DNA from: a virus
IMG/VR virus record: IMGVR_UViG_3300025816_000006
Location: 62,001-126,000 of that record
Length of the DNA: 64,000 nucleotides
Strand: one strand, 5' to 3'
The translations under genes and the position numbers were made by a program. The notes beneath the pieces were generated by a model. That model ran no database searches and was not told the DNA's origin. It was given only the letters and a program-made list of their open reading frames with translations. This document shows positions 1-49,345 of the stretch, piece after piece (within the stretch, counting starts at the first letter, position 1; each line of letters begins with the position of its first letter).

Positions 1-1
1 T

Positions 2-3000
2 GCAATAGAAATATTGACAAGTGGTAGAGCTTCAAATTATCAAGAACACTATATAAACTTGATGACCCCGGTTGTAGATACTGGCAGAAGAATTGAGAAG
101 TGTTTCCATCCGACCTTCTTCCCTAAGTTTGATTTTGACACAGGAATTTGGCCGTCCGTTAGCAGTATCTGGTATGCAAACAACGATGTAGATTATTCTA
201 ATCAAAGCACTCAGGGGTCTTTACAGTTATTGGAAAATATTAGAGACCCAGAAGATGATACCTTTGCTATCCTAAACTCTATGGGAGATATAGAAAATTC
301 TGGTAAGCTGACGCTTAAATTTGGCTATAGCCCATCTTCACAAAAAGAAATTCAAGCGGGTAGTTTTTCAGATGCGTTCGGAGAAGGTAGGAATAAAAGA
401 GATAATATTTGGTTCAGTCCTTCTGGCGCGTTCTCTGGACTAACGACAAGCACAACAGATATTGATCACAACTTCTTTAAGTTTGACTCCATAACGCTTA
501 AAGTCAGGGCTAAAAAAGCTGTAGGTAGTAGAGACTATGTGTTAGATGTAGTTGGATACAGCGATGACTGCCTCTTGAATGTAACTTCTGCTGTTGGCGG
601 TTTCTTGCAAAATACTTCTGGGGTCACATTCCCTGATCACTCAGATGATAGCTTGGTGTTCTATGGTAATACCGGAAGCATACCAACGACATCTGGATTT
701 AAAAATGTAGATGATCTTGGTCTATCTACTGAGCCGTTCTCTAATAAAGATCATTACTTTGAGTCTAATTCTACGAACAATGCTGGTGGAGATCACTATC
801 TCTTAACAACTTACCCTACTGTCACGTCTACTGAATTTGAATGGTACGAAATACCCCTAAAAGCTTACGAAGACAACGTAGAAATTGGTAGATCGAAACA
901 GTATAATTTAAGTTCATTGCTTGAAAGATTGTACCTAGATATTTACCCCTTGCCAACTGGCGCTGCTATTTCAAATATTCATTTGTGTGTAAGGTATGCG
1001 CCACAAAATGCATTTAACCTTACCTCTCAAGGTGGAGAAAAGATAGGCAGAATTGCAGACGGAAGGACTGAAGGCTCTTACTTCCCAACTTCCAGACAGT
1101 CTAATGACTTGATTATAAATGCTGGCTCTGGTTTTAATCCGTTGTCGTACATATCTGGAATACCTCAAGCCTTTACAACCCCTGACAGCTTAAAATCTAA
1201 CTACTCCAGAAGATGGAGAGGTATGGAGGGTACTGTACAAGGTCCATATGACGTAGATCAGTTTGGATTTGGGTTTGAAAACCCACACCTAGATTATCCA
1301 TTCATATCAGGTTTCTACTTGTTTGAGGATAACTCCACAACTATAAGACCTGTTGTTGGCGCGTTGACTGGAACGCTTACGACATCATATGATAATTTCC
1401 AATTTACAAATATAGGCTGGAGATTCTCTAACAGCGGATTGTTTACTGATCGCTGGCCTACTTACTCTACTCCTTACACAACGACGGACTGGACTGCATT
1501 AGAAGATGGCTCTAATAACTTCCAAAACCATGAGTTATACGGTCAAGTTGCAGATGCGTTTAGAAATGTTGTAAGAATATCTGGTCAAAATTCATTCATT
1601 AACTTTGGTAATATCAACTATGGACCTCAAGGAGACTTAGGTCTTTCTGTTTACATAAGATTTACTCCAGACGCTAATGTTTCTGGTGCTAATTATAACC
1701 TGTTCAACAGTGGCGTTCTTGTTTCTAAGTATGACGCTGGACAAGACATTGAGTTCTGCTTAGGTTACTCTGACGGTTATTTGGTCGCCAAAGCTAAAGA
1801 CGCTACTAGTGGATCAATCAAACAAGCTATTGATACGGTTAAATATTCAGGATATCAGTATCCTCTGAGTGTTATCATGACTTACAATGATGACAATTCA
1901 CATAAGTTAAAACTTTATACCGACAATGAATTTGAGTCAAACTGGACTACGCTTCGCGCTACATCTGACTCATTCTACATGGACGTTAATAGTAGCGATT
2001 TGAGGGTTGGTCACTCTCCCGGCTCTGGCGTTGGCTTCAATATGTTCTTGTCTGAGTTTGGTTTGTCGTCTGGCAACATCGTTCAGTCAACCCCTGACGC
2101 TACACACAAAGAAGTAACCGCCCAGAAGTTCTTTGAGAACAACAGAGTCTACTGGTGGGATGAAGGAGAGACAACTTCTGAGGATGCTTATAAGCTTTGG
2201 GATTATGTAAATGAAAACACTTACACCGATTGGCATATTGGCGCATTTAAGCATTGTGAATTTAACTATGAGTTTGATAATCTTGGCAGTAGACCCGGAA
2301 AGAGGACTGGTAGAGATTTAATTAACTTTAACATCAAGCATCATGGTTCTGGCTATATTCAATATGCAAGCTTGGCTATGCCATCAAATGTAGATTCTGG
2401 CGTATCTTATCACACTCAGATAGAAAATGATTTCCTTAGACTGCACTTGAGCGATACCCCTGACAATTTCTACGCTGTTTACCCAAGGGTAAGTAAAAAT
2501 CTTCCACACGGATATAAATTTACAGAGAAAGCGCTTGTTGTTGAAACTGTACTTGAGCATAAATCTGATAGCCACAACATTGTTTGGGAAGATGGTAGTA
2601 TTGGACCTAAACTTATAGTAAGTCTCTACACAAAAAATCAAGAACCAGAACATCCTTTGGTTGAGCCATTTACAGAGCCAAACTGGGGTCTTGTCAATAG
2701 AGCTATACATTATCTACCACCTTCTAGCTGTTTGATGAGATTTGATAGCACATTCAACTATAACGATTACTGCGATGAATCAGAGAAGTGGGCGCTATTC
2801 CCGCATGAGCCAAGGTTAACAGAGTTGACAGAGAAATATTTCTCTAAAGACGTTGATGATATGTTCTTACAATACGACTTGGTTTATCCATCTGGTCCAG
2901 CTTTTGATTCTCGTATTGACATGCATACCTGTCATGTTAGGGCGGAAGACGCATTTGTTAACGCGACTAATACATCCGGTGTATTTAATTTATACACAAG

Positions 3001-6000
3001 CGGCAACCCTAGCCCTGTGACTGGCGTATTAGACATGTTCACATTCAACGCTTCTGGAATGGGTCCAGAGTTTGGATGGAGTCCTGCAAGCGGCTTGAAT
3101 ATGATATTACGTGCGCCTATAGAGGTTAATGAATCTGGATTTATATTGTATGCCAGTGGCGAGCAGATATCCGCTGAATCATTAAAAACATTTATTGATG
3201 GTCATGAGTTAATTAAAGAGTCTGGATTTAATTTAATAGCTTCTGGCGATGGTAGAACTTGGACAAGCTTCCCTCCGAGGGGCGGTGCGGTTGTTGGAAG
3301 TGATTTTGTTGTAGGTGATGCTCCAACTATTCCTCCTCTGCCCATGCTTGTGTTTGGCAAGGGTGTTGACAGTGGCGTGTTACCTTTGTCTATTGGTGCT
3401 ATTAAATCACCGACTTCACCCGAAGCTTCTCTTCCGTTATCGCTATTCCCCTCTACGGCTGGTTCTGGTGGAGTACGTGACTTTATGCCAGTTTACCTGC
3501 TACAGAACTTTAGTAATGAACCGGGACCAAAATCTGGCGAACTTGAACTAAGTATAATTGGTGCTGCTGGTTTATCTTCTAGGTATAGAAATGCTTCTAC
3601 TAATCTTTCCCTACGTGGACCAGACAGACTGCCTCTTAAAGAAAATGTTAACCTCACTTTATACGGTGACAATTTATCAGAAGTAGTTTCTACAGGTAGT
3701 CTTAATCTGTTTAGCTCTAACTACACTGGTTTCAATACTCCGTTTTACTTGTGGTACAACAACAATTATGGAACCGGCATAACTCTTGAAGATAATAATA
3801 TTGCTAGTATTCTTGTTGGAGATGAGATACGTGGAGTAACCTTGTTTGGATATGGATCTTGCACTGGCGATAGTCCACAAAAAGCAATAGATCCCGCCAT
3901 AATAACTGATGATACTGTGTGGCGAGAAGAGACCTGTAATGAAGGTGGTATATTTAGAGCGACAAAAACTTACACAAATCTTAGTGCTGGCTATAGCGGT
4001 AATTACTACGGAATAAGAAAATTACAGGGTCTTATTCCAGACGCTCCTTATATGACAACATTAAAAATAAGAACAGGATCTACTACTGCTATTCCTGTTC
4101 CTAGAGATTGGGAAGAGTGGGAATATGGAACCTGTGGCCCAGATACTATTGGTGGCTGTTGTCCAGACGATGCTTGCTCAAGGAATATTAACTTTAGCGG
4201 CATAAAATTAATTGGCGATTATCCATACCTGAGTGGAGATGCCACACACTACGATGTAAGCGGTAGACTTGCTGGTGATAATTATGGACACGCCGTAGCT
4301 GTCAAGAAAGACCTCATGGCAGTTGGCGCACCTAAACATAACATATACGACGAAAGAGGCGAGCTACTAAATGACGCAGGTGCTGTATTCTTATACAGAA
4401 GAAACGAAGATGTTGCTGGACTAAAAGCAGACTGGGAGCTAGAAGAAAAAGTATTACTTCCTTCTGGCTACAGACAAGATCACATAAGTGCAACCTATCA
4501 AAATCTTCTTTGCTATCCCAATAATATAACTAAAGAGTTTTGTATTTCTGGTCAGCAGTGGAATATTGGTCAAGAAGGAAGAGAGTTTGGTTATTCCTTA
4601 GACTTGGCTAGCAGTGGAGATAAGGAGACACTAGTTGTTGGTGCGCCCGGAGCTTACTGGGACAGAACATTTGAAGACATCGTTGTATCTGGAATACCCG
4701 TACTCATGCTTGTTTTCACTGACAAGTTTTCCTACAATAAAGAAAAAATTGCCGCTATAGGCAATACTGCCTTAAAGTATGACATACTATATAAGTATTT
4801 TGCTGTTCCTTGGGATATTGGAGGTTCAGATTTTCAACCGCAGTTAGATATAAATGTTCTGTTGTGTCAAATACATGACAGCGATCAGAAAGATAGCTTA
4901 CCTAAAGTAAGATCTGACAAACCTTGGTTCCATCATCTCTACATAAATAATCTTCTTGATGGAAATGAAGATTCAACAGTATTGAAAAACACTGCCGTTA
5001 GTGGAATCCAAAAGAAATTCTTTGAAATGTTCCCCTACAGCAACAATTTGTATAGTGGTATTCCACCTATCGTTGGAGTGTTTGGTGATGATACACCTTC
5101 AACATTCAACAAAGGTGCATTCCAACCAGCACTTGATGAGTTTTTGTCCTTCTATCAAGATTACGCATATCAAAGCGGAATAAAGGATTTAACAAATGAC
5201 ACAGAGCAATCTGGGTACATTAAACAAATTTATTCTGACAGCTTTAATTGGGATAAAGCGTCTGTAGAAATTTTGAATGAAACTCTCGCAACTGGAAACC
5301 TGCTGACACAAAAGCAAGTACAATTCCCAGACTATAATTCTGCTGGTAATGTTGTTATGAATTACATCACCAGTGGCGTTGGTCAACAATACGCTAGAAG
5401 TAATTCTTATGAATTCCAAATACCACCAGAGTCTGGTGGTCGTGTTTACATATTTGAAAAAGAAAGCGGAAACTTTAATCTGGTGCAAGAGATAGTATCT
5501 CCGCAAGAAGATTTGAAAATGTTTGATAGTGATGATTTTGCTGGAGCTATGGATGAAAATGGTCTTCCATACGGAGTCAAGCCTAATGATAGATTTGGTC
5601 ATGCCGTATCTATAAGCAATAACTCGGAAGTTGTAACGGTTGGCTCTCCTTACTCCTCCGAGGCTTGCTTGATATACGAGCGAGATGAAAAAGAAAACGC
5701 CAGAATGTATAAGGGTATTCGTAGCTGGCTAGACTTTAACTCCTTGGTAGCGGAGTCAACAAGGTATGACACATTGCTTGCCGCCTCTGGAGATTTGGAA
5801 GTTCAAAAAACAATCTATCATGAGCTTACCAAGGGTAATAAATTCTTACTGAGATCTGACAAAAACTTCTGGGGTAAGACCCCAATAAATCTTTATAAGA
5901 AAATATTTAAATATGATTATTCAGATATTCCGTACACTGGAACTTGGGGTTTCATCCCACAAGAGGTAGCCGGAACTTCTAGACTTGGATATAGCACTGC

Positions 6001-9000
6001 TGTTGGAGAAGATGGAGACATAGTAGCATTTGGAGCGCCTACAGACTCGTTTAATGAGTTTGATGATTACAATGTTTACTACAGATCAGAAGATACTTGG
6101 GCTTCTTACATGCAAGCTGGAGCCGTTAGGGTGTTTGAGTCTAGAAAATACTATCCACACAGTGGCGCTGTAGAATTTACAAGATTTGGAAATCTTGACA
6201 GAAGCGTACACGGTTCAGGAGACAATCAACAATTCTACGATCAAATGGGGCTTTACTTCAAGCCTGATAATGTTTCTTTTGAAAGACTTCCATTTTCTGA
6301 AATAGAGATACCTCAAAGCGCTGGATTGGCATTTATTATTACGCCTGAGATAGATGCTGCAAGCGATGAGATTATCGACAACATCAAGTCTTGGTTGGCA
6401 CTTGGTGATAGAACATTGGTTTTGGTTGGTAATGACCCCATCTGGGAAGACGACGGTCTTTACTTTGACTCAAACGAAATAGTAAACAAGGTTCTTCAAA
6501 AACTTGGCTCAAGAATGAGGCTTGTTCCAGCAAGAAACGAGTATGAGTCTTTGGTTGGAGGGGTTGCAGAGTCAGATTATAATAATGATAAATATAATGT
6601 AACGAAAGCATTCATCCCTGATTATATTCATGACACACATCTGACTAACAACAATATGTTTGCTAGCGGTGTTGCCGATATTAGAATAGATATTTCTGAT
6701 TTGGAATTGGAAGACTTATTACTACATTCACCTTGCGACAAAATTAACACAAGGTGTGAGCATACAATTCAACATATGGGAGACTTGAGAGCGCAATGGA
6801 ACTCCGAATGTATTGTGGCTGGCACTCCTCCCGGTAAAATAGAATTTAAAACAAACTGGCCTTTCCACTTTAATAATGAAAATCCAGCAAGAGACTGTAG
6901 CTTCTGGCCTCAAAATCCAAAGCCTTATATTGATAGGCCGGGAGAGGCAATCAGACCTGTTTTAACTGCTGCGGAACACATAACACCACCGCCGCGAATT
7001 ATAGCTGCTTCTAGTGGTGAAAAGGAACAGTGTACAACCAGTCTGTCTGGAATTATAAAAACTGAATATACAACAAGCACTAAGTTGTATGAGTTTGCTG
7101 ACACGCAGATAGATGAACTGGCTTTCTCTATAAGTCAACCCTCTGGAACTTTGCTTTCTGGAATATTTGATGATTTCACAAGAGGTCAGTTCTTTGATCC
7201 AGCACCATTTGACAAAAGAAACTCGTTTATGCAAGCTGCGGGTACTTCTTACGAAATAGACGTTCCGCCAGATGATGTCGTGGTTTCTCCAGAAAGTGTT
7301 TGGGCCACGGAAGAGTCTTACTTAAACAACACCGTTGATACAGGCTCTAAGGTTATCTTGTTTGCTTCTATGCTTTCTGAGACTGACTGGGCTTTAGGTA
7401 AATCAAATAACGCAGGCGAAGACCCTAATAACAAAGACCAGAATATATTCTTTTATAACAATCTTGTTGCGTTAGATTGCAACAGTGCTGGAAATATAAT
7501 TCAACTTGGCGGATGGACCGGTAGGAATTCATTTAAATCTGCTTTTTCTGACTCTGCGATTGCAAAAACGTTTATTCAAGGCGGTCATACTGTTTCTTCT
7601 GGGGTTTTATTTACTGACAACGATCCAATATCAACAATTCACAATGTAGCTTGGGTTGCAGACCCAGTTGCCAAACCTTCGGACGAAGATATAACTAGAT
7701 TAAAGAATTGGTTGAATACTGGCAATAAAAAACTTGTCATGACTTATTCTGCTAATCAAGAAAAAGCCAATATAATTGAATACATTTGTGATCAACTAGA
7801 GTTGAACACTAAGCCATTCTACTCTAAAGCAAATGGTGCTTATTTTGTTCAGGACACAGAGTTAGTTGCTCAAGGCAACACGCAAGGCATCCCTTACGAC
7901 AGTCAAGGTGGAATCGAACAAGCGCAACTTATTGACGAAACTGCATCTGTCTTTGTGGGTTGTAACAAAGGCTATGCGTTCAACGCAATTACCGCAGAAA
8001 CTAAGGTTGAAAAACTAGCCATTATACCGAAAGACGCTAACCAGCAAGATTACTCGTCTGAGGTAGATTTTGAAACAGGATTCACGGAGTATGCGTTTAT
8101 TCCAATTAAACCCGGAGCAAACACCAAGAAGCTTGTTCGCTACAAAGCACCTTTAATAGAGAAGAGATTTAACAATCCTTACATTTATTGGAAAATTGAT
8201 GGTGATGCAAATGCTGACTTTAAGGTTATTGCAGGTTCAGGTTACAGGTTGTATATAAACTACATATCTGAAAGTCCAGATGAGAAATTTGATATAAACT
8301 TAGGATTTGATGGTGTGTCCTTCTCCCCTTATCCAGATGATAGAGAAGAGAGTGGGGATGGTAATGTAGATGATGATAGCAGAAAGCTAGATAGAACAGA
8401 TACTTACAAGATAAAAACTAAAGTATTTGACATAAAAGCTAAAGACACTTCTACTGAATTTTCTCTCAAGTTTGATACCGATGAATGGAGACAAATTAAG
8501 AGCGCAGACTTTGATGGCAATAGACCTTTAACGCCAAGGGTTGTATCTATCTCTGGTTGTCCTCTGCCTATTGAGGTTGAAACACTGACATCAACAAGGA
8601 TCAAAGAAAGAAAGATCTATGTAACAAGATGTTCTGGTGTTCCTTTCTTCAATCCAGAGCAGAGAATAGAGTTTGATCCAGTCTTTAGGCCGATCTCGAC
8701 ACTAAATGACAAGTACTGTCAGTCGTCACCGGCTTGCGATGGCTATGGAGGTCAAATGATACAGGATGGCCCTATCATCGCAGCAGATGAGCTAGAACAC
8801 TTCACAACCTTTAATGCTGGTAGAAATAGATCTAGAATTGTAGTTCTTTCTGACTCCACCTTGATACAAGGTCAGTCGCCTTACTTTAGAAACGACGCTC
8901 TTGAAGAAAATCAGAAGTTTATAAGAAGCTTGTACCCAACAAGTCCAGAGAAATATGGAAACATGGAGTATAGCAATGATACTAACTTTATTGACGGCGT

Positions 9001-10822
9001 AAGGAAATTCTCTTTCACACAAAAAATATTGTCACCACAAAGAGGCAGTGCTGCTAAATACTACGCTGCAAGCGGTCTTACTAATTTAGTTGACAGGTAT
9101 ACTCTTGGTGGATCTCTTGGCAATTTAACCAAGTACACAGACCAAGAGAGCAGTAAAAATCCGGGAGATATATTTAGAGAGTTTAGCCCAGAAACACCAG
9201 AAAAACTAGAGCAAGAATTAGAAAAATTTGGTGAAGATATTATACCAATCTATGGTGTTTATCCTAGATATAGCGGCATAATAGATGGAAAACTTTATCT
9301 AGATGCTGGTATTGAGGGCGGTATGCCACAGTTCATGATTGACAAACACAAAGACTATATTGACTTTGACATGCTTGCATCTGGGTATGCTGGTGATTTA
9401 TTTGGCATATCCATTGATATTCATAACGATAAACTAATTGTAGGCGCACCGTTTAATGGGTTCCTAGATGAAGACATTCGCTCATGGCCTGAATTAACAA
9501 ATCTACATGCGTCTGGGTTCGTAGGTTCTGGCCTTAAACTAAGTGGCAATGGTGGCGCTGGCGCTGCATTCTATTACGAAAGAACTGGCAGAGGTAAAAA
9601 TTCAGTATCAGAATTCTTACCTTGGCAATTCCAGCAAAAGATTAAACCCAGTAGCATTAACGTTGGTATAGACAACGCAACTTTAGCAAAGCTAAAAGAA
9701 CAAAAAGCACATCGTCCTATTGATATCACAAGCGATTTTGTTGCGAAAAACGCAATGATTACAGACAGGTTCGGCTATTCAGTTTCTATTGATTCTGACT
9801 TTGCTGCGATAGGCGCACCCGCCCATGACTTTGAGACTACACATCAGCATATTTATGGAGGAAGTGCTGCATTTATTAGAAAAGAATTTGGAGGAGAGTT
9901 TGATATACCTGAACACAAGTTCTTTGATCTTGGTAGCTCTGGCGTTAGAATAGATGACTTCAATAGAGCTAGTGGTAAAATGGTGCTAAATAATGGCGCT
10001 GTGTTTACTTATCGTCACAAAATGACAGATTGGGCGGCAAGATCTAAAGAGTGGGTTTACGCTCAGAAAATGTACCCAGAAGGATTTAGCGATAGAAACA
10101 CTGTTGCTCTGACTGGATGTGAAAATGATTTCTTTGGATTCTCTGTTGCCATAGATAGAGCTAGACGTGGAGATAGCGATTACGTTATGGTTGCCGGTTC
10201 TCCAAATCATAACTATCCAACCAGTGGTCAACATACAACACAAGAGCTTGAAGATGCTGGTTCTTCTTATACTTTTGACGCGATGCTTAGAGAACAGCTT
10301 GCATCCCTACCAAATGCTGCAAGTTACATTGATGCACAGGTATTTGGACACAAACCAGAAAGTCAAGCAGACAGATTGAGAAATATTGTTTACCAAAATA
10401 CCACAGGTGGACAAGAAACATTTGAAGTGAGTGGTATAATCATTGCTAATGAAAATGGTGATGTTTTCTTGGAGGTTTCGGGTCAAGATCCAGCAACCAA
10501 AGGCTTTGTTGCTCACAGACCATATGTAGAATTGGTTAGGGGTGAATTAATATCTGGAACTGGCGTCAATCAAGAGTTTAACTTGATAACAGATGGTCAA
10601 CCTGTTCCTAGAAGCGGTTTTATGAATCTTTCTATTCCCGGTCCATCGTCCGATATAGTGTATAATAATATGAATCTCTACAGCTTTGGAGCTTATGTAG
10701 GAAGTGGAGATATGCCTTTGTATATGCAGGTTGCTAGTGGCACTTCTAATAATTCTTTAGATTTGTTGCTAAAAGACCCTCAGATCATAGCCAATATGAA
10801 TTTAAGGATAAGAGGTAAATAA
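2..10822 (+). CDS. Giant tail/adhesin protein with FG-GAP-like and LamG-like regions (5' end outside window)
   Basis: The reading frame is open from the first bases, so the start lies left of the window; at least 3606 residues are present. In order: a beta-rich N-terminal part; a laminin-G/concanavalin-like stretch at about 1620-2080; short beta repeats with the pattern SG-x-hydrophobic-x-L at about 2960-3790; seven FG-GAP-like blades at 4276-4332, 4583-4650, 5587-5650, 5980-6040, 9391-9450, 9761-9820 and 10120-10205, each of the type FGxSVxI...hhVGAP; and beta repeats again at 10400-10815. Between blades 4 and 5 lies an insertion of about 3.3 kb with Rossmann-like segments. FG-GAP blades form integrin-type beta-propellers that often bind calcium and ligands, so a host-recognition or tail-fibre role is likely. 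The position at the head of a tail block supports this. The exact virion location is not known from sequence. Confidence 0.75.
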   Translation, partial: AIEILTSGRASNYQEHYINLMTPVVDTGRRIEKCFHPTFFPKFDFDTGIWPSVSSIWYANNDVDYSNQSTQGSLQLLENIRDPEDDTFAILNSMGDIENSGKLTLKFGYSPSSQKEIQAGSFSDAFGEGRNKRDNIWFSPSGAFSGLTTSTTDIDHNFFKFDSITLKVRAKKAVGSRDYVLDVVGYSDDCLLNVTSAVGGFLQNTSGVTFPDHSDDSLVFYGNTGSIPTTSGFKNVDDLGLSTEPFSNKDHYFESNSTNNAGGDHYLLTTYPTVTSTEFEWYEIPLKAYEDNVEIGRSKQYNLSSLLERLYLDIYPLPTGAAISNIHLCVRYAPQNAFNLTSQGGEKIGRIADGRTEGSYFPTSRQSNDLIINAGSGFNPLSYISGIPQAFTTPDSLKSNYSRRWRGMEGTVQGPYDVDQFGFGFENPHLDYPFISGFYLFEDNSTTIRPVVGALTGTLTTSYDNFQFTNIGWRFSNSGLFTDRWPTYSTPYTTTDWTALEDGSNNFQNHELYGQVADAFRNVVRISGQNSFINFGNINYGPQGDLGLSVYIRFTPDANVSGANYNLFNSGVLVSKYDAGQDIEFCLGYSDGYLVAKAKDATSGSIKQAIDTVKYSGYQYPLSVIMTYNDDNSHKLKLYTDNEFESNWTTLRATSDSFYMDVNSSDLRVGHSPGSGVGFNMFLSEFGLSSGNIVQSTPDATHKEVTAQKFFENNRVYWWDEGETTSEDAYKLWDYVNENTYTDWHIGAFKHCEFNYEFDNLGSRPGKRTGRDLINFNIKHHGSGYIQYASLAMPSNVDSGVSYHTQIENDFLRLHLSDTPDNFYAVYPRVSKNLPHGYKFTEKALVVETVLEHKSDSHNIVWEDGSIGPKLIVSLYTKNQEPEHPLVEPFTEPNWGLVNRAIHYLPPSSCLMRFDSTFNYNDYCDESEKWALFPHEPRLTELTEKYFSKDVDDMFLQYDLVYPSGPAFDSRIDMHTCHVRAEDAFVNATNTSGVFNLYTSGNPSPVTGVLDMFTFNASGMGPEFGWSPASGLNMILRAPIEVNESGFILYASGEQISAESLKTFIDGHELIKESGFNLIASGDGRTWTSFPPRGGAVVGSDFVVGDAPTIPPLPMLVFGKGVDSGVLPLSIGAIKSPTSPEASLPLSLFPSTAGSGGVRDFMPVYLLQNFSNEPGPKSGELELSIIGAAGLSSRYRNASTNLSLRGPDRLPLKENVNLTLYGDNLSEVVSTGSLNLFSSNYTGFNTPFYLWYNNNYGTGITLEDNNIASILVGDEIRGVTLFGYGSCTGDSPQKAIDPAIITDDTVWREETCNEGGIFRATKTYTNLSAGYSGNYYGIRKLQGLIPDAPYMTTLKIRTGSTTAIPVPRDWEEWEYGTCGPDTIGGCCPDDACSRNINFSGIKLIGDYPYLSGDATHYDVSGRLAGDNYGHAVAVKKDLMAVGAPKHNIYDERGELLNDAGAVFLYRRNEDVAGLKADWELEEKVLLPSGYRQDHISATYQNLLCYPNNITKEFCISGQQWNIGQEGREFGYSLDLASSGDKETLVVGAPGAYWDRTFEDIVVSGIPVLMLVFTDKFSYNKEKIAAIGNTALKYDILYKYFAVPWDIGGSDFQPQLDINVLLCQIHDSDQKDSLPKVRSDKPWFHHLYINNLLDGNEDSTVLKNTAVSGIQKKFFEMFPYSNNLYSGIPPIVGVFGDDTPSTFNKGAFQPALDEFLSFYQDYAYQSGIKDLTNDTEQSGYIKQIYSDSFNWDKASVEILNETLATGNLLTQKQVQFPDYNSAGNVVMNYITSGVGQQYARSNSYEFQIPPESGGRVYIFEKESGNFNLVQEIVSPQEDLKMFDSDDFAGAMDENGLPYGVKPNDRFGHAVSISNNSEVVTVGSPYSSEACLIYERDEKENARMYKGIRSWLDFNSLVAESTRYDTLLAASGDLEVQKTIYHELTKGNKFLLRSDKNFWGKTPINLYKKIFKYDYSDIPYTGTWGFIPQEVAGTSRLGYSTAVGEDGDIVAFGAPTDSFNEFDDYNVYYRSEDTWASYMQAGAVRVFESRKYYPHSGAVEFTRFGNLDRSVHGSGDNQQFYDQMGLYFKPDNVSFERLPFSEIEIPQSAGLAFIITPEIDAASDEIIDNIKSWLALGDRTLVLVGNDPIWEDDGLYFDSNEIVNKVLQKLGSRMRLVPARNEYESLVGGVAESDYNNDKYNVTKAFIPDYIHDTHLTNNNMFASGVADIRIDISDLELEDLLLHSPCDKINTRCEHTIQHMGDLRAQWNSECIVAGTPPGKIEFKTNWPFHFNNENPARDCSFWPQNPKPYIDRPGEAIRPVLTAAEHITPPPRIIAASSGEKEQCTTSLSGIIKTEYTTSTKLYEFADTQIDELAFSISQPSGTLLSGIFDDFTRGQFFDPAPFDKRNSFMQAAGTSYEIDVPPDDVVVSPESVWATEESYLNNTVDTGSKVILFASMLSETDWALGKSNNAGEDPNNKDQNIFFYNNLVALDCNSAGNIIQLGGWTGRNSFKSAFSDSAIAKTFIQGGHTVSSGVLFTDNDPISTIHNVAWVADPVAKPSDEDITRLKNWLNTGNKKLVMTYSANQEKANIIEYICDQLELNTKPFYSKANGAYFVQDTELVAQGNTQGIPYDSQGGIEQAQLIDETASVFVGCNKGYAFNAITAETKVEKLAIIPKDANQQDYSSEVDFETGFTEYAFIPIKPGANTKKLVRYKAPLIEKRFNNPYIYWKIDGDANADFKVIAGSGYRLYINYISESPDEKFDINLGFDGVSFSPYPDDREESGDGNVDDDSRKLDRTDTYKIKTKVFDIKAKDTSTEFSLKFDTDEWRQIKSADFDGNRPLTPRVVSISGCPLPIEVETLTSTRIKERKIYVTRCSGVPFFNPEQRIEFDPVFRPISTLNDKYCQSSPACDGYGGQMIQDGPIIAADELEHFTTFNAGRNRSRIVVLSDSTLIQGQSPYFRNDALEENQKFIRSLYPTSPEKYGNMEYSNDTNFIDGVRKFSFTQKILSPQRGSAAKYYAASGLTNLVDRYTLGGSLGNLTKYTDQESSKNPGDIFREFSPETPEKLEQELEKFGEDIIPIYGVYPRYSGIIDGKLYLDAGIEGGMPQFMIDKHKDYIDFDMLASGYAGDLFGISIDIHNDKLIVGAPFNGFLDEDIRSWPELTNLHASGFVGSGLKLSGNGGAGAAFYYERTGRGKNSVSEFLPWQFQQKIKPSSINVGIDNATLAKLKEQKAHRPIDITSDFVAKNAMITDRFGYSVSIDSDFAAIGAPAHDFETTHQHIYGGSAAFIRKEFGGEFDIPEHKFFDLGSSGVRIDDFNRASGKMVLNNGAVFTYRHKMTDWAARSKEWVYAQKMYPEGFSDRNTVALTGCENDFFGFSVAIDRARRGDSDYVMVAGSPNHNYPTSGQHTTQELEDAGSSYTFDAMLREQLASLPNAASYIDAQVFGHKPESQADRLRNIVYQNTTGGQETFEVSGIIIANENGDVFLEVSGQDPATKGFVAHRPYVELVRGELISGTGVNQEFNLITDGQPVPRSGFMNLSIPGPSSDIVYNNMNLYSFGAYVGSGDMPLYMQVASGTSNNSLDLLLKDPQIIANMNLRIRGK

Positions 10823-12633
10823 TGCCCATTAGAGTAAGTTATAATAACGACCCCCAGCAAAAATGTACATTAAGGCCAGTGCCTTTTATGTCCATAGGAA
10901 CGTCTATTCTTAAAAACGGCGCGGGCGAAGCATTTGGTGCGGTATACACGATAACATTAAATGGCACACTTTTGGCGGATCAAGGTACTCCTTACGCCAC
11001 AAAACCCGTATTTGACGTTGGCGCTAGTGAACACGTAAGGTACGACTTTCATTCTATTCCTGCTACTTATCCGGGAAGCTATGCAACCAGTAAAGTCGGT
11101 CCTTACAAAAGTTTTGATAACGTTATAGGTGCAGATAAGTATCCTATCAAGCAGAAAGTTCCTCCTAACGAAGCTTCACACGCCTTGTTTGTCAAACAAA
11201 AGGCACTAAGAGGACTGTTCGCCAGAGATGGGCAAAGGGTAGAGTTGTCAAACTGGTCTGACGACGAAGAAACAATTATTTGTTATCCAAGGGTTTTGGA
11301 TATTAGTTTTGAAGAAGGTATCTATGTAGATAAATGTGATTATACAATTACACTTGAAGCAGATACTCTTTTAAACAGCAAGCTTCACGTTGATGCCGAA
11401 GGCGCTTTGATAGCAGGAGATGGTATTGCTAGAAGCGGTTTGCTAGAACAAGATTTATTAAGAGAACAAGATAAGCAGTTTCATCCTAATGCACACCCAG
11501 TTCTAGCTAGTTTAAGCGGTGCTTTCATAAGTGATTTTTCTGAAGACTGGTCTTTAGAAATAGACGATACCCTTACAGAACAGCCTCATGTAAATAGATC
11601 TTATAGAGTAACTCATACAATAAACGCCACCGGTAAAACTCACTACGGACCAAAAGACAACACAGAGAGTGAAATAGTAAAGAGAGATGCGTGGGAACAA
11701 GCTAGACTATTTGTTCAAAAAAAGCTATGTAGTTCTGTAAAAGACTTGTATCCAAATAGCTCTGGACTCATAGGTAAAGGTATAATAAATTTACATGATG
11801 CTTATCAGGGATATAATCACACAAGAACAGAACAGATAAACCAGTCTGCTGGTAGCTATGCGGTCACAGAAACATTCTTGCTAGCTAGCGGTACGTCCTA
11901 CGAAACCTACAGCATGAATATTTCTAGCGACATAAGCAGCCCATTTGTTTCCGTAAGTATTGATGGAAATGTCAAGGGTCTTACACCTATTGATCCAAGC
12001 GGCTCTGCTTTTGGCGGAAAACATCTACAGAACTCCGCATCCGGTGCTTACGATGTTGCTATTAATAAATATATGTTGATATCTAATAGTGGTAGGTTTG
12101 GCATCGGCGCTGACTTGTACAAAAGAGCAAATGCTTCTGTTGCGGTTCAACTTAATTCTCAACCTAATTCAGTGTCTCTGGGGATGAATGAGAATACGGG
12201 AGAGATAACATATAATTTATCTTTTGACAACAGACCTACAAATATTGTTTCTGGAGTGTTGTCTGAAAATATAACTGTAACCGACACGTATCCCGGAGAT
12301 GTATTTGCTGTAATTCCTGTTCTTGGTCGTCCAACCGGACCTGTGCTTCAATATATTGGAGGGAGGACTGAGTACAGAAGAGATGTTCAATTGGTTTTAC
12401 AGATGGATTATACAAAGATACCTTACGGTTCAACTAGAAATTCTTTACTTCTAAAAAAACCCAGCGTGATAGAACCAACAGCTAGCCAAATAAGCAAGTT
12501 GATTCAAGAGCTAAGTCCTGAAGGTGAGCAGGGTGTTAGAAAGTATTTCTTATCTCCACCACAGGAAGGTTGGAGTCCCAAGGAAGGCTCTTATAATATT
12601 AGTTTATCTTGGACTTACGAGTTAGATAAATGA
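10822..12633 (+). CDS. Tail/baseplate-type structural protein, 603 aa
   Basis: The ATG overlaps the stop of the giant gene upstream as TAATG, with GAGG seven bases before it, so the two are translationally coupled. No family was recognised with certainty. The protein is beta-rich and soluble, with no signal peptide or membrane segment. The N-terminal 200 residues describe a compact domain ending in a segment with the sense YPRVLDISFEEGIYVDKCDYTI, which resembles tail or baseplate wedge-like proteins only in general character. A middle part has a YGPKDN...AWEQARLFVQKKL helix. The C-terminal half contains repeated Ser-Gly dipeptides (ASGTS, SASGAY, DPSGSAF) as in the neighbours. Context makes it a virion protein; the exact role is unknown. 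Confidence 0.6.
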   Translation: MPIRVSYNNDPQQKCTLRPVPFMSIGTSILKNGAGEAFGAVYTITLNGTLLADQGTPYATKPVFDVGASEHVRYDFHSIPATYPGSYATSKVGPYKSFDNVIGADKYPIKQKVPPNEASHALFVKQKALRGLFARDGQRVELSNWSDDEETIICYPRVLDISFEEGIYVDKCDYTITLEADTLLNSKLHVDAEGALIAGDGIARSGLLEQDLLREQDKQFHPNAHPVLASLSGAFISDFSEDWSLEIDDTLTEQPHVNRSYRVTHTINATGKTHYGPKDNTESEIVKRDAWEQARLFVQKKLCSSVKDLYPNSSGLIGKGIINLHDAYQGYNHTRTEQINQSAGSYAVTETFLLASGTSYETYSMNISSDISSPFVSVSIDGNVKGLTPIDPSGSAFGGKHLQNSASGAYDVAINKYMLISNSGRFGIGADLYKRANASVAVQLNSQPNSVSLGMNENTGEITYNLSFDNRPTNIVSGVLSENITVTDTYPGDVFAVIPVLGRPTGPVLQYIGGRTEYRRDVQLVLQMDYTKIPYGSTRNSLLLKKPSVIEPTASQISKLIQELSPEGEQGVRKYFLSPPQEGWSPKEGSYNISLSWTYELDK

Positions 12634-13523: not shown

Positions 13524-16500
13524 ATGAGTGATGAACATAAACCAAACTATTCAATAATACCACCAACTGGCGCTTTTAACCAAAACCAAGCAACCGGAAA
13601 GGGGTCTGAGTGGCCTAGTAAATTTGTTTTACCTCAAGGTCCATCTGGAACTTTCTCTAAAGGCGGCTGGACGGAAGGCAATGAAGGGTTCAATCAACAA
13701 ACCTTTTTGGGCGCTAGTATAAGAAATTTTAATATAGCGGGTGGCTTTGGCGACAGCAGTAGTAACTTGTCTGTATCTTTGGTAGAAGATGAGTACAATA
13801 AATCTGATTCTACGTTTCTAGGATTAGGTGACGATGTATATCATTCTGGAAATGGTGACAATTTTGTACCACCTCCAGTTGGGACTCCTGTTTTCTTTAA
13901 GTTTGGTAAGAACTGGGCAACCGTTGAGCAGGCTTACAGAAGAACAATAGATGAAACTTACGGCATATCCTCTATAGATTTAAAAAAATGGGATTTTGAG
14001 GATGAGTTAATTCAGCCTAGTGGGGCATTCTCTACGACTCCTTTTGAGCCTTCTGGAGACTTTCCTAATGCTAGAGGTAAGTTTTATCTAAGAAAAAATG
14101 AAAAGACGCTTATTTTTCCAGATATAGAAGATCCAAGAGACGATAAAAGAACTTGGGTTGATAAAAGTTTTCTTCATACACACGACGATAAAGACAGAGG
14201 GTATGAACACTTTGTATTTGGAGGTATACTACAAAGCGTTTCTGAAACCAGAGGCGCAAATGGAAATCCAGTTCAAACAGCACAAGTAACAGACCCAAGA
14301 GAAATACTAGGAAACTGTTCTCTTATATTAAACGACTATGCTGGCACTACATTTAACAATAAAAATCTTTTTAATGTTTATGGATTTTTAGAATACGACC
14401 CAAGCGATAGTTTGCAAAGACGACTAGATCAAACCTCTGAGTTTAAGTGGATTGTTGAAAAACAAGTTAATCAGACTGGACAAGTTCAATATTTTGGTAG
14501 AGACAAAGATAAATCAGTAACAACTATTAATTTCCCTGTTAATACAGAAAATCAACTACAACTGAATCCTTCTGCTGATTACTGGGATATTTACAAGTTT
14601 TCTCAAACTGTGACATCGGTTCCAAACCAAGGTAAAATTTTTAGCAGAGAGTCTATAGACACTGAAGTTGGTGCAGACGAAGAATTATTTCCTAAATTTT
14701 TTCCTATAACCGGAGAGGGTTTTTCTAGAAGAACCGAACAGGGTATACCTTGGTATAGAGTTAGTCAAGCGCTAGCCGCGCTGTTTCAACAATATGGAAA
14801 ATTACCTGAAGAATATTTAGAAGCAGGATTTGGAGGAACTATAGATTTTAGAGGATTTAATTACATTGTAGACTTTGGTGGGATACCTCTAAACAAAATA
14901 CCAAAAGCATACATGCTAAAATATAACCAAATAGATATATTAGCTTTGGCGCAAGAGCTTTGCGATGTCATTAGTCATGATCTTTTTGTTAGTCTTCTTC
15001 CTGTTGTCGATCCTTTGACAGATCTTGAAGATGAGCAGGATGAAAAAGCCGCTATAATGAATGCAGCTTTTGCTAAGAATAACTATTGGATCAAGAAAGC
15101 GACCGGTTACGATTTTGGTAGTGATAAATACAAGCAGGCCATATCTAATATTATTCATGGTGTCATAAGAATAGATGCTATTGACAGATCCAAGCAACCT
15201 TCATATGGCTCTATACAGTCTTATATAAATCAACTTGAGAATAAAGGTATTTATGTTGAGAATAGAAATCTTGGGTTTGAGCTTTCAAATGTTACCACTG
15301 ATAAATTTGTGGCTGGCGCACAAGAAGTTGAAATGTATTACTTCTCTACTTATAAAGATAGAGATAGCTTGGAGGCTAGAAAGCAAGCCGCTGGGGTTCC
15401 TAACAATTTACAAAATATAAACGAAAAACAGTGGACCCTAGAGGCTTCTCTTAAACAACAAGTTTTACCGTTTTATGGTTTTTTAGGTAAAAATGCCTTG
15501 TCTATTCCAAGGGGTTTTGGTGCATATCAACAAATAATGCTAGACGCTTCTTCTCTAGATGCGTTTGGTGTTGGCAATTATTATGTTGCAACAGAGATGG
15601 AACTTAGACATGCCATAAAAGGTTACGATGAATGGAAAGATTTTATATGTAAATATAACGATAGTTATATTGAAGAACTAGGTCAAAATAAAGCATTTTA
15701 TAAAGAGTTAGCCAAAACTACATCTAAAGATATAGAAGGTTTAGGTGGTGATCTTAGTGAACCTCTTGGTACTTGCATAACACCTACACTTGAGGGTGAA
15801 CCCGACATAATTACTACTGGTGTTCTGAAATCTTCATGTGATGGTGCAGATGAGACTTTTATAGAAACAAGTCCAGCACAACTTTTAAACAGAGAGTTTG
15901 GAGTTTCTGTACCAAGGTGCGTGTTTAATTCAGACAAAAACTTTATGAGCGATGATAATACGCCAGCAAGCCCTTGCTCTCCTCCTTACGGCTATCCTCT
16001 TTACTACAAGAGAGCGCAAAACATTGGTATATCTAAAGCGGGCGTGGCAAAAGTGACAGATGCAGTTACTAGAGTTAGAAGTCAGATAGAAACAATTAAA
16101 AACTACGCTTCTTCTGACCCAATGAATAACGTTTATAAGGCAAACTTTGAGGCTTTAGAAGAAGAAACGAAAATGCTAGAGGAGTTAGCTAGTTACGCCG
16201 GGGAAGATGCTATAGATGGCCTAAAAGAAACAATAAACTGCATATACGAGCAACAAAGAGCTATCACAGCAACTGAAAACGAACTAATCAAAGCTAGTGG
16301 AAATATAGCAAAAGTAGACAATGTGCTTAGAACAGCAAACGCTTTATCAGTTAATCTTTCTAATCTAGCTAGAAGGGGAGAAAGAAATGCTAGAAAAATA
16401 CATGAGTTTGTAGCAAAAATAGCGCAAGAAAACTTAGGAAAGAAGTTTCTAGTAAAAATTCCAAGGTTTTGTAATGTAAATTATAGCGAAATACCTGCAC

Positions 16501-18845
16501 TAAAAAATTATTTTTCAGCCGATGCAGATGGAAATATAGCTGACGTTACAGACAACATAAGAGAAATTTATCAGGGGCCATATGGGTTCAGACCTTTACC
16601 CGTAAATGCAGATGGTCAAGATTTACTAGAGTCTCAGTCTCACATATTCAAAATGAATCAGATTAGACAGGATCAATTAATAAATAAGTCTTGGTCTTAT
16701 GAAAGATTTTTATATAAAGATAATTTTATTGGCTCAAAAGATCCCAACACTGCTGATTTAACTTATGGATACGGAGCGCTAAAAGGTAATTATAACCCAC
16801 TCTCAGAAAAATGGGCGTTTAACTATGTGCCTGAGCCACAAGGTGGATTTCTAAACTTTGCTCTATATCCAAGAAATCTATCTTTGTCTCAAGTTGAAAG
16901 CAGATCTATACCTGACTCAAAATTATCCCCTGCGGCCCAATACAATTTTGTTCCAAAAGACTTGTCGAACTTTGTGTCTGACGATGGACGTATAGAATGT
17001 TATGTTAGGTTTGATAATAGTCAATATTTAGATTTTAAAGGCATAGGCGCTGACTCTATAACTCAAGAAGTTATACAAGGCAACACACTTATTCCTGATG
17101 TTTTATCAGAATTAGACAACGTGAATACTGACCAGCCAGAATCTTTACAGGATCATGTAAAAAGAGAGTCTGGGCCAGACAAAAAACCAACTTCCGTTGC
17201 TTATGTTAAATGTAGCGTAGAGCCTCGTCTCTTTATGCCGCCAAAAAGCGAAGAAACTCCAGCTTTAGTTTTTGGAAGAGACATAAGGTACGTGCCTAAT
17301 TTTGCTCCAGCTAAAGTCATTGAAGGTACAGATGATTTAGGTTGCCCCACATATAAGTGCGTTAAGCCTTTTGCACAACCAATATTTGAGCCTAGCAGTA
17401 GATTTAAAGAAGTTGCACAAAATATTGGATACGAAAGGGTCTTGCCACCTCAACAGTTTCTATTCAATGACAAAACTTTTGAAGTAGAAACAACGTTTGG
17501 GAATCCTAATAGACAGATAAACGGTGGAGGACTAGACAGTACAATTATAAGACATGTAGAGTATGCCAGAAGATATGATAAACAAACTGACTCGTTTATA
17601 ATAGATACAGAAGAACAAAATCTAGATAGCGATCATGTATACGCTCTTATAACCTTACCCGGAGTTGTCTCTACAAATGTAAATCAAAGATTTATGGATG
17701 CAGAAATATTAAGTAAAAATACTGCTTCTATAAAAAATATTATGACTCAAGATGTTGTTAGGGGGCCAGAAGGATTTGAAAAACCTGCGCAGATTGTAAA
17801 TGAAAAGGTTCCGCTTGATTGTAGTGATTTTACTTTCGAGGATATAGAAGCTGCCCAGCAAGCGCAAAGAGAGTCTGTTGCAAGTTTAATACGTGCCGAC
17901 AGAGAATCTATTACAACATCTGCTGGGTCGCCCGTTTTTCCAAATTTAGTTGCGCTACCTCTCATGTCAACAGAAAGGTGCTACGGACCTTGGAGATCTG
18001 CTGCAAATATAGACGGAAGTAAAGATAGATATACGGACATCGGAGGTAAAGTAGAATTTGTAAAGAACGAAGACTTAGCGCCTTGGAATTACGCCGGATA
18101 TCAATTAATGAACGAGGCTGGCGTTTTAGAAGCAGAGTTTTCCAATAGCTTGCTACTATTTTCTGAAAGAGGTGGATTTGTTTTCCCTTCTACTCCTGCC
18201 GGAATATCAATAGGAAAAGCCTTGCAAGACGGAGGGCCGCTTGTTACATCTGTTTCTATAGACGTATCTCAAGCTGGCGTAAAGACTACAGTTAAAATGG
18301 ATCTTTATACATCGCGCTTTGGAAGATTGCAAAAACAAAAAGAAGACGCAATAGCACAAATAGTAAGAGAAAGACAAAAGATTATTGACACAAATAACGA
18401 AATGGTTAGAAAGGGTTTGATAAGAAGCGCTACAAGCTCTACAGCTAATTCTATAAAGTCAGCTTTTGCTGGCGCTAATAATCTTATTAATGATTTTAGT
18501 AGAATAAATGTGGACGAATCTGTTGCTAGGCCAGAGCGAGCTAATGCTTGGAGAAGAGCTATCTCCGTTCAAAAAAGAAAAGAGAGGCTGACTAACGAGG
18601 AAGGTGGAGAAGAAGAAGCTGTAACTCCGCACATTGTTTCATCTACTTTGGATCTTCTTGGAGCATATGCAGGATACGTTGACAGCATAACACTTGGTGT
18701 TCAGGAATATGCAACAGCAGAAGAAGAACAGCAGATACCTTACGACGAATCAAACAATCCACAAATGCCAAGCAAGGCTCAAGTAAATATGAACTCTATA
18801 AGCAACACAATAGCTCCTCTGTTTATGCCTAAATTTGATGATTAA
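13524..18845 (+). CDS. Very large tail-block structural protein, 1773 aa
   Basis: The ATG lies three bases after the upstream stop with GAGG nine bases before it. The protein begins with repeated PTGAF, PSGTF, PSGAF and PSGDF motifs, related to those in the neighbouring tail proteins. A long mixed alpha/beta body follows. A strongly helical, probably coiled-coil stretch lies at about 16040-16440, and another charged helical segment at about 18320-18620. It could be a baseplate or tail-tip scaffold, since such proteins combine long beta domains and coiled coils, but I recognise no named family. No signal peptide or membrane segment is seen. Confidence 0.55.
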   Translation: MSDEHKPNYSIIPPTGAFNQNQATGKGSEWPSKFVLPQGPSGTFSKGGWTEGNEGFNQQTFLGASIRNFNIAGGFGDSSSNLSVSLVEDEYNKSDSTFLGLGDDVYHSGNGDNFVPPPVGTPVFFKFGKNWATVEQAYRRTIDETYGISSIDLKKWDFEDELIQPSGAFSTTPFEPSGDFPNARGKFYLRKNEKTLIFPDIEDPRDDKRTWVDKSFLHTHDDKDRGYEHFVFGGILQSVSETRGANGNPVQTAQVTDPREILGNCSLILNDYAGTTFNNKNLFNVYGFLEYDPSDSLQRRLDQTSEFKWIVEKQVNQTGQVQYFGRDKDKSVTTINFPVNTENQLQLNPSADYWDIYKFSQTVTSVPNQGKIFSRESIDTEVGADEELFPKFFPITGEGFSRRTEQGIPWYRVSQALAALFQQYGKLPEEYLEAGFGGTIDFRGFNYIVDFGGIPLNKIPKAYMLKYNQIDILALAQELCDVISHDLFVSLLPVVDPLTDLEDEQDEKAAIMNAAFAKNNYWIKKATGYDFGSDKYKQAISNIIHGVIRIDAIDRSKQPSYGSIQSYINQLENKGIYVENRNLGFELSNVTTDKFVAGAQEVEMYYFSTYKDRDSLEARKQAAGVPNNLQNINEKQWTLEASLKQQVLPFYGFLGKNALSIPRGFGAYQQIMLDASSLDAFGVGNYYVATEMELRHAIKGYDEWKDFICKYNDSYIEELGQNKAFYKELAKTTSKDIEGLGGDLSEPLGTCITPTLEGEPDIITTGVLKSSCDGADETFIETSPAQLLNREFGVSVPRCVFNSDKNFMSDDNTPASPCSPPYGYPLYYKRAQNIGISKAGVAKVTDAVTRVRSQIETIKNYASSDPMNNVYKANFEALEEETKMLEELASYAGEDAIDGLKETINCIYEQQRAITATENELIKASGNIAKVDNVLRTANALSVNLSNLARRGERNARKIHEFVAKIAQENLGKKFLVKIPRFCNVNYSEIPALKNYFSADADGNIADVTDNIREIYQGPYGFRPLPVNADGQDLLESQSHIFKMNQIRQDQLINKSWSYERFLYKDNFIGSKDPNTADLTYGYGALKGNYNPLSEKWAFNYVPEPQGGFLNFALYPRNLSLSQVESRSIPDSKLSPAAQYNFVPKDLSNFVSDDGRIECYVRFDNSQYLDFKGIGADSITQEVIQGNTLIPDVLSELDNVNTDQPESLQDHVKRESGPDKKPTSVAYVKCSVEPRLFMPPKSEETPALVFGRDIRYVPNFAPAKVIEGTDDLGCPTYKCVKPFAQPIFEPSSRFKEVAQNIGYERVLPPQQFLFNDKTFEVETTFGNPNRQINGGGLDSTIIRHVEYARRYDKQTDSFIIDTEEQNLDSDHVYALITLPGVVSTNVNQRFMDAEILSKNTASIKNIMTQDVVRGPEGFEKPAQIVNEKVPLDCSDFTFEDIEAAQQAQRESVASLIRADRESITTSAGSPVFPNLVALPLMSTERCYGPWRSAANIDGSKDRYTDIGGKVEFVKNEDLAPWNYAGYQLMNEAGVLEAEFSNSLLLFSERGGFVFPSTPAGISIGKALQDGGPLVTSVSIDVSQAGVKTTVKMDLYTSRFGRLQKQKEDAIAQIVRERQKIIDTNNEMVRKGLIRSATSSTANSIKSAFAGANNLINDFSRINVDESVARPERANAWRRAISVQKRKERLTNEEGGEEEAVTPHIVSSTLDLLGAYAGYVDSITLGVQEYATAEEEQQIPYDESNNPQMPSKAQVNMNSISNTIAPLFMPKFDD

Positions 18846-39755: not shown

Positions 39756-40146
39756 AAAAAGCTCCGTTGATTGTAGAAGACTTGACAAATAACCCAAAAG
39801 ACCTAAGCTTGTTTTTTACTGAATCAATTGTTGACAAAGAAAGGCTTTTTCCAATAATTGCAGACGCGCTATCTTCATCTGTCATTCCGTTTATAACGTT
39901 TTTAAAGAAACATCTTAGCTCTACGCCAGAGACAACGACAGATCCTCCTGATCGTAACTTAGAGCATATCAAATTTAAAAAATCTGTTGGACTAGGTGTG
40001 TTATCTAAAGCGCCCTTAGCTATTATTAACTCACAAGAATTATTAGCAACATTATCTAGATTTAGATTTTGATTTTGCTGGTTTAGGAAAACAGTATCAA
40101 AGCCTTCAATTTTTTGTGACTCATCTTCTATAATTTGTAATTTCAT
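39724..40146 (-). CDS. Methyltransferase-like fold protein, lacking the SAM motif I, 140 aa
   Basis: The stretch NNSCELIIAKGALDNTPSPTDFLNLICSKLRSGGSVVVSGVE fits the second half of class I methyltransferases (motifs II-III). The N-terminal GxGxG half is absent. It may be a degenerate or regulatory homologue. It starts with ATGA overlapping the upstream GT4 stop. Confidence 0.5.
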   Translation of the reverse strand: MKLQIIEDESQKIEGFDTVFLNQQNQNLNLDNVANNSCELIIAKGALDNTPSPTDFLNLICSKLRSGGSVVVSGVELRCFFKNVINGMTDEDSASAIIGKSLSLSTIDSVKNKLRSFGLFVKSSTINGAFYEVTAERRAS

Positions 40147-41129
40147 TTTTTCATCCCGTATGCGAGGTCAAATACTTCGTTCCAATTGTTTATAAATTTA
40201 TCTTCTGAAAACTTTTCTAAGATTGTTTCTCTTGCTGCCTGTCCCATTTTAGCTGCTAGCGAAGGATCTTCAAGTAGCTCCTTGGCGTACCCCTTCAAGT
40301 CTTGCTCGTTGTTTGAGATATATCCATTAACGCCATTCTTTATTATTTCTGGTATCATACATGTAGCAGTAGACACAACCGCACAACCGCATGACATGGC
40401 CTCTAAGAGCGATGTAGGCACAGGGCTTACTGTAGACGTATTTAAGAAAACGGACGCTTCCTGATACTCTGATGCTAGCTCATGGATGTCTTTTGCTGGC
40501 TTGGAAAGCCCCGGAGTGTTACCCACCAGTTTAACTGGTAGTCCTTCTGTAATTCTTTTCCAGCCAGAATAATTACAACAATAATCTCTATTTACAAAAT
40601 CGTTTACAACACTTAAAACTTTTCCATTCTTTTCTGTGTCATGTATTTTAAAAAGCTCTGTGTCTACTGAGTGATGGATAACTCTATTGTCGCAGTTCAT
40701 GTTCCATTTGCCAGCAGAGTATTCTGATATAAATACATTAATATTACCAGCCATAGATCTAAAATTATTCAACTGACTTTCCGGCCAGTTGTCTATAGGT
40801 AGGGTATGCTCAAGAGAAACAATGGGTAAACCAAGTCTTTGATTAATACTGTGCGCTGCTTGAAATTGACCAAATTTACTATGAGATAAAATAAAATCAA
40901 AATCTATACTTGTCATAATAGAATTTTTAGGCATAACGTAATAGTTTTCTGGAAGTTCTGAATAGTTGTTATCCCACTCTTTACATCCGTCATACCTAAA
41001 AGAAAAGAAATTATGACCAGTCTTTGCTTGTTGGTACTGGTATCTTTCATGTGTATCAAAAGTTAAAATATTGTATTTATCTTTCTTTTGTGTGGCTTTG
41101 CTTATAATAGAAGCTGTCTGACTACTCAT
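40143..41129 (-). CDS. GT4-type glycosyltransferase, 328 aa
   Basis: The C-terminal half carries the GT4 signature: VKLVGNTPG, EASVFLNTSTVSPVPTSLLEAMSCGCAVVSTATCMIPEII (the Ex7E-like donor site) and NGVNGYISNNEQDL. The N-terminal half has DFILSHSKFGQFQAAHSI. It uses a nucleotide sugar donor and retains configuration. The acceptor is unknown. It overlaps its neighbours by four and eight bases. Confidence 0.8.
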   Translation of the reverse strand: MSSQTASIISKATQKKDKYNILTFDTHERYQYQQAKTGHNFFSFRYDGCKEWDNNYSELPENYYVMPKNSIMTSIDFDFILSHSKFGQFQAAHSINQRLGLPIVSLEHTLPIDNWPESQLNNFRSMAGNINVFISEYSAGKWNMNCDNRVIHHSVDTELFKIHDTEKNGKVLSVVNDFVNRDYCCNYSGWKRITEGLPVKLVGNTPGLSKPAKDIHELASEYQEASVFLNTSTVSPVPTSLLEAMSCGCAVVSTATCMIPEIIKNGVNGYISNNEQDLKGYAKELLEDPSLAAKMGQAARETILEKFSEDKFINNWNEVFDLAYGMKK

Positions 41130-49316: not shown

Positions 49317-49345
49317 CAATATCTCCTTTCAACATGGGTCTACTT

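Follow-up and report, generated by a model that had tools for sequence, protein, structure and literature searches.

A giant phage protein with seven FG-GAP repeats, likely one interrupted propeller ring and a candidate tail-tip platform

The C-terminal ~2200 residues of a giant phage protein probably make up one FG-GAP ring with domains in its loops, forming a conserved platform of the tail tip or baseplate, while the N-terminus of the same protein would touch the host. In the arrangement that we propose, a closing strand lying just before blade 1, followed by blades 1–4 and 5–7, would come together as a single seven-bladed propeller of the integrin type. The loops of this ring would hold alpha/beta domains, one in blade 2 and, between blades 4 and 5, a GldG/DUF4350-like group that exceeds 1000 residues, and these domains may lie on a shared face of the ring. 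The giant protein itself is most likely a structural part of the tail tip or baseplate, its place in the virion being judged from gene context. Within it the propeller would act as a rigid platform, conserved across the phage group, and the contact with the host would more likely be made by the N-terminal part, which is variable and has repeats and lectin-like modules of its own.

The window, that is, the whole stretch of 64,000 nucleotides that was analysed, corresponds to positions 62001–126000 of a virus record (G000:C1) of 162,690 bases. An open reading frame occupies positions 14–10822 of the window; no stop lies ahead of it and the frame is open at the left edge. Reading the neighbouring sequence places the start of the gene at G000:C1 58282, 3.7 kb upstream of the window, and the complete gene (58282–72822) encodes a product of 4846 amino acids. 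The gene is thus larger than could be seen from the window, to which the initial annotation was confined. It directly follows a gene for a protein of 2464 amino acids that matches tape-measure families (best E 1.2e-22, PHROGs); searches of PHROGs gave no match for the giant protein or for eight neighbouring genes. The order tape measure, giant protein, 603-aa gene and 1773-aa gene is kept across loci, with the tape measure adjoining in 57 of the 69 loci when neighbours are counted where in view. By this gene set the tail tip of a widespread, uncultured phage group would become recognisable. The genes of the locus that lie in the window are the following.

1–10822, plus strand: presumed giant tail protein, C-terminal 3602+ residues (open frame, gene completed from the upstream sequence)
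10822–12633, plus strand: 603-aa gene downstream, a conserved neighbour (near 65 of 69 loci)
13524–18845, plus strand: 1773-aa gene, a conserved neighbour (near 59 of 69 loci)

The same phage DNA holds several other genes. DNA polymerase III alpha is encoded in two genes on the minus strand (44960–49319), one for a PHP and NTPase part and one for a finger and OB part, and an HNH_3 gene and an RNase_T exonuclease gene lie between them. Two DUF1501 genes stand in tandem in this phage genome (52107–54610, minus strand; E 4e-90 and 7e-110), three group 1 glycosyltransferase genes are found at 40143–44577 (minus strand), and PAP2, HMGL-like and RXYLT1_C-like genes occur elsewhere.

The seven FG-GAP-like repeats reported by the initial annotation at positions 4276–10205 are present, and their coordinates are correct. 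The FG...GAP motifs begin at nucleotides 4283, 4586, 5594, 5984, 9401, 9770 and 10133, all in frame within one open reading frame, and the last ends at nucleotide 10204; in the full protein they stand at residues 2668, 2769, 3105, 3235, 4374, 4497 and 4618 and span residues 2668–4641. The profile search that had been suggested as a check gives a match to Pfam FG-GAP_2 (PF14312) in five stretches of the giant protein, with 72.9 bits (curated cut-off 23 bits) and E = 2.3e-20, and the same family is matched in all 16 family members scanned. With a strict regular expression six motifs are counted in the protein, whereas 2000 shuffled sequences average 0.002 and never exceed 1, so the repeats are far above the level of chance. 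As read from the sequence, none of the seven 1–2 loops (KKD, ASSGDKE, SNNSE, GEDGD, HND, DSD and DRARRGDSD) is a DxDxDG calcium loop. From the GAP of blade 4 to the FG of blade 5 there are 1120 residues (3.36 kb), in agreement with the insert of 3.3 kb described before. Large insertions had also been placed between blades 2 and 3; the gap of 315 residues is there, but most of it lies inside blade 2, between strands 2 and 3.

Prediction of the structure in pieces, likewise suggested earlier, was carried out with AlphaFold2 on residues 2630–3450, using an alignment of 52 sequences; it covers blades 1–4 (mean pLDDT 83.5, pTM 0.67). Blades 1–4 are predicted to be beta, with four strands each. In blade 2, strands B and C are set apart by an alpha/beta domain of ~250 residues; in blade 3, a helical insertion separates strands C and D; and a further alpha/beta domain follows blade 4. 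When this model is compared with the PDB using Foldseek, integrin alpha propellers rank first, the I-domain integrins being the best matches, with global TM-scores against known propellers that are low (0.08–0.19, normalised by query). The parts of the putative ring and of its insertions, all on the plus strand, are as follows.

4184–4219, plus strand: putative closing ('velcro') strand, NINFSGIKLIGD, which precedes blade 1 and is proposed as strand D of blade 7
4271–4468, plus strand: blade 1, YGHAV...VGAP...GAVFLYRR...WELEEKV (motif, Pfam, AlphaFold2 model)
4574–4648, plus strand: blade 2, strands A and B (motif, AlphaFold2 model)
4670–5416, plus strand: insertion 1, a predicted alpha/beta domain inside blade 2 (AlphaFold2 on the homologous domain of relative L083)
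5087–5101, plus strand: MIDAS-like motif [DE]-x-[ST]-x-S in insertion 1, here DDTPS (conserved in the family)
5435–5503, plus strand: blade 2, strands C and D, GGRVYIFEK...NLVQEIVSP (AlphaFold2 model)
5582–5917, plus strand: blade 3, its strands C and D separated by a helical insertion (motif, AlphaFold2 model)
5972–6193, plus strand: blade 4 (motif, family alignment, AlphaFold2 model)
6194–9376, plus strand: insertion 2, ~1060 residues between blades 4 and 5 (family alignment)
6320–6517, plus strand: DUF4350-like alpha/beta segment 1 of insertion 2, AGLAFIITP...LGDRTLVLVGNDP (Pfam in relatives and invariant columns; placed by eye)
7643–7798, plus strand: GATase1-like segment 2 of insertion 2, DVxWIANP...WLNTGNKKLVITY (Pfam in relatives; placed by eye)
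8765–8938, plus strand: segment 3 of insertion 2, DGPxxAAxExE...RSRIVVISDSTLIQG...FIRSLYP (conserved block; possible resemblance to a GldG-like C-terminal part)
9389–9649, plus strand: blade 5 (motif, family alignment)
9758–10081, plus strand: blade 6 (motif, family alignment)
10121–10285, plus strand: blade 7, strands A–C (motif, family alignment)

Searches with a conserved segment, with an alignment of blade 4 and the next domain and with an alignment of blades 5–6 found relatives on ~80 further viral contigs, some of them recovered more than once. Motifs and alignment show the 4+3 layout in the first 16 loci that could be used. Each of the 61 loci covering the whole region has blades 4, 5, 6 and 7 in register, and the spacing between blades 4 and 5 there ranges from 1067 to 1330 residues. 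Scans of viral contigs gave no relative with a short insertion at this point. As judged from these alignments, neither the number of blades, seven in every complete member, nor the 4+3 split varies in the family, while the part ahead of the first query segment is between ~890 and 2480 residues long. Contigs binned into a SAR202 MAG and a Verrucomicrobiales MAG carry three relatives (L092, L093 and L094); this hints only weakly at hosts, as these may be co-binned phage contigs. In the open-access literature we found no paper on phage FG-GAP tail proteins; work elsewhere is possible.

Blades 1–7 likely form one seven-bladed ring. At least nine contigs divide the coding sequence of the giant protein between two genes, and none of these gene splits falls between blades 4 and 5. 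In five of six splits examined closely, the second gene starts ~110–170 residues before blade 1, with an overlap of 4 or 23 nucleotides; in the sixth (L085), the split is further upstream of blade 1. The stand-alone second gene encodes 2213 residues in L069 and 2356 in L063. Since the gene is parted before blade 1 and not between blades 4 and 5, the blades and their insertions appear to form one unit. Alternatively, blades 1–4 and 5–7 could fail to pack against each other and make two part-propellers, or open beta arrays, as the more than 1000 residues inserted between blades 4 and 5 might suggest. We regard this as unlikely: seven blades are found in total in every complete member, and blades 1–4 are never parted from blades 5–7 by a gene split.

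Coupling between blades bears on both readings. It was computed as mutual information with APC on 54–60 dereplicated sequences in 24 settings, uncorrected for phylogeny. Under these conditions the natural circular order of the blades ranks between 1 and 17 among 360 circular orders. The pair formed by blades 1 and 7, which are ~1950 residues apart, is first of the 15 non-sequential pairs in 18 of the 24 settings, it takes places 3 to 9 when 207 distant window pairs are ranked, and this speaks against two separate parts. Coupling between blades 4 and 5, on the other hand, shows no excess (at most 0.97 of expectation in every setting), as two separate parts would have it; blade 4 couples weakly with every blade, however, so that the test has little power for this contact. 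Thus, the couplings favour the order of a ring and a contact from blade 7 to blade 1, and leave a contact between blades 4 and 5 unsupported.

The segment that precedes blade 1 shows coupling with blades 5, 6, 7 and 1, and not with blades 2–4. It is unstructured in the AlphaFold2 model, from which blade 7 is absent, and in its conserved YSGxKL pattern it is similar to the D strands of the remaining blades. Its couplings, and its lack of structure when blade 7 is absent, are what would be expected of a closing strand. The initial annotation had proposed a full seven-bladed propeller with insertions and had named, as the finding that would tell against it, blades belonging to two separate domains. 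We sought the latter indirectly, through gene splits, coupling and the invariant count, and did not find it. The full propeller is well supported by the invariant count, the unsplit blades and the coupling of blades 1 and 7, though not at the contact between blades 4 and 5, and stands unproven. If a single ring is indeed formed, a beta-propeller tolerates an insertion of more than 1000 residues inside its ring, and a whole phage group keeps it.

Other phage proteins carry uninterrupted runs of FG-GAP repeats, of 7 (L182), 7 (L184) and 21 (the first run of Sinorhizobium phage Phosso). The Phosso protein (XYS97267.1; L005:5904–16979) has 3692 residues and ~40 FG-GAP repeats, the 21 of its first uninterrupted run being three times seven. 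A different giant phage protein of ~4790 residues (L180, L181 and L183) also has FG-GAP blades, with ~230 residues inserted after an early blade.

Insertion 1 is predicted to be a compact domain, since the corresponding part of relative L083, folded alone with AlphaFold2, reaches a pLDDT of 90 and a pTM of 0.87. Its MIDAS-like motif has the acidic residue and the S/T in 52 of 52 members and the final S in 51; moreover, a D follows the first strand in 50 of 52 members and a T/S follows the last helix in 48. This order of residues would fit a circularly permuted VWA domain. The protein might then be a phage analogue of an I-domain integrin alpha, with insertion 1 as a permuted VWA domain bearing a ligand-binding metal site (MIDAS), a reading to which the conserved residues lend some weight, as does the ranking of I-domain integrins as the best PDB matches of the blade 1–4 model. 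A comparison of profiles with 12 VWA domains aligns only the MIDAS-like strand–helix unit (P = 0.011), but exactly that unit. Nevertheless, we consider such an analogue quite unlikely. No VWA domain occurs among the 50 best PDB matches of the isolated domain in Foldseek, even though it was modelled at a pLDDT of 90, and for this reason we do not claim VWA membership for insertion 1; Pfam gives no match with either the native or the permuted sequences. In addition, the integrin I domain is inserted at the end of blade 2 (PMC12422189), whereas insertion 1 lies between strands 2 and 3 of that blade. In all, the search for a VWA or I-domain identity by Pfam, PDB sequence search, profiles and Foldseek returned only the local MIDAS-like match. 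Alignments of 600–726 columns to integrin alphaX are not taken as matches to the I domain: gaps count among the Foldseek columns, and ~670 columns are also reached by viral propeller proteins that are compact (279–473 residues) and without such a domain.

The strongest coupling among the 207 distant window pairs links insertion 1 with the last segment of insertion 2. This fits domains that share a face of the ring, although it is suggestive only. The loops bearing insertions 1 and 2 are, we assume from integrin geometry, on the same face. It is conceivable, if rather improbable, that the tail platform has converged on the design of I-domain integrins, with a closed ring whose upper face would bear a permuted VWA-like metal-binding domain and, touching it, the GldG-like domains.

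The profile matches in insertion 2 are weak to moderate and suggest that it carries GldG/DUF4350-like domains. Among 47 members, ABC_transp_aux (PF09822) is matched in eight (best E 4.3e-5), DUF4350 (PF14258) in six (best E 0.0024) and DUF4159 in one. With segment 1, a strongly conserved stretch with invariant columns, DUF4350 is matched in 7 of 16 members (best E 0.0026). These matches occur in relatives only; the window's own insertion 2 sequence has no match to PF09822 or PF14258 at E <= 1.

Compared in windows of 100 residues with L006, the nearest relative whose protein is complete, the giant protein falls into two parts by identity. Identity is 28–69% over residues 1–1000, 28–56% over residues 101–1000, and lowest, at 28–54%, over residues 101–900; over residues 1001–4846 it is 69–96%, with no gaps across the ring. 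The N-terminal modules differ from member to member: LamG-like (E 0.0016), Calx-beta with LamG-like, or RCC1 with cadherin-like. By these comparisons residues 101–900, which lie outside the window, are hypervariable and swap lectin, Calx-beta and RCC1 modules. The Calx-beta domain of L006 is found at residues 548–646. In the giant protein of the window, exactly seven motifs of the type S-x-D-G-x-x-h-A stand at residues 152, 222, 280, 350, 429, 498 and 579 (G000:C1 ~58730–60140, just outside the window), and its hypervariable part perhaps holds another seven-bladed propeller of a different kind.

This distribution bears on the suggestion, made in the initial annotation, that the propeller is an adhesin head. 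Propellers of the integrin type join in ligand binding in animals (PMC3192720), and the inserted domains could provide binding surfaces for a ring that is itself the receptor-binding head. A receptor-binding part would be expected to vary between close relatives, however, and it is residues 101–900 that do so; the ring is conserved (69–96% identity), and domain swapping takes place at the N-terminus. The role of adhesin head is therefore not supported for the ring, and we consider it unlikely. A structural platform at the tail tip would be well served by a conserved ring whose insertions are fixed, as variable modules suit host contact by the N-terminus, and the maintenance of the layout in more than 60 related phage contigs argues for a shared tail-tip scaffold. 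The division between a conserved platform and swappable, probably host-facing modules makes questions of host range testable.

The putative ring resembles several known systems, each in part. In bacterial propellers of the integrin type there are seven FG-GAP repeats, and several blades bear DxDxDG calcium loops (PMC3192720). Like the N-terminal propeller of integrin alpha and its bacterial relatives, the phage ring has seven repeats in which strand 1 contains FG and strand 2 contains GAP; unlike the integrin alpha propeller, it is without DxDxDG loops, has two very large insertions and is found inside a protein of 4846 residues. With the I-domain integrin alpha chains it shares an alpha/beta domain inserted near blades 2/3 of a seven-bladed ring, but in the phage protein the insert separates strands 2 and 3 of blade 2, a VWA fold is not recognised and there is a second, larger insertion. 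The resemblance to I-domain integrins is thus one of layout, and homology is not claimed. The FG-GAP_2 proteins of other phages (Phosso XYS97267.1, L182 and L184) and the FG-GAP proteins of giant viruses (BFVD) have the same kind of repeat; the arrays of L182 and L184 are uninterrupted, however, and no FG-GAP_2 protein that we examined has the 4+3 split with GldG-like domains. Finally, GldG/ABC_transp_aux (PF09822) and the GATase1-like domains of DUF4350 (PF14258) are known families to which insertion 2 has profile matches, but here they would be placed inside a phage propeller.
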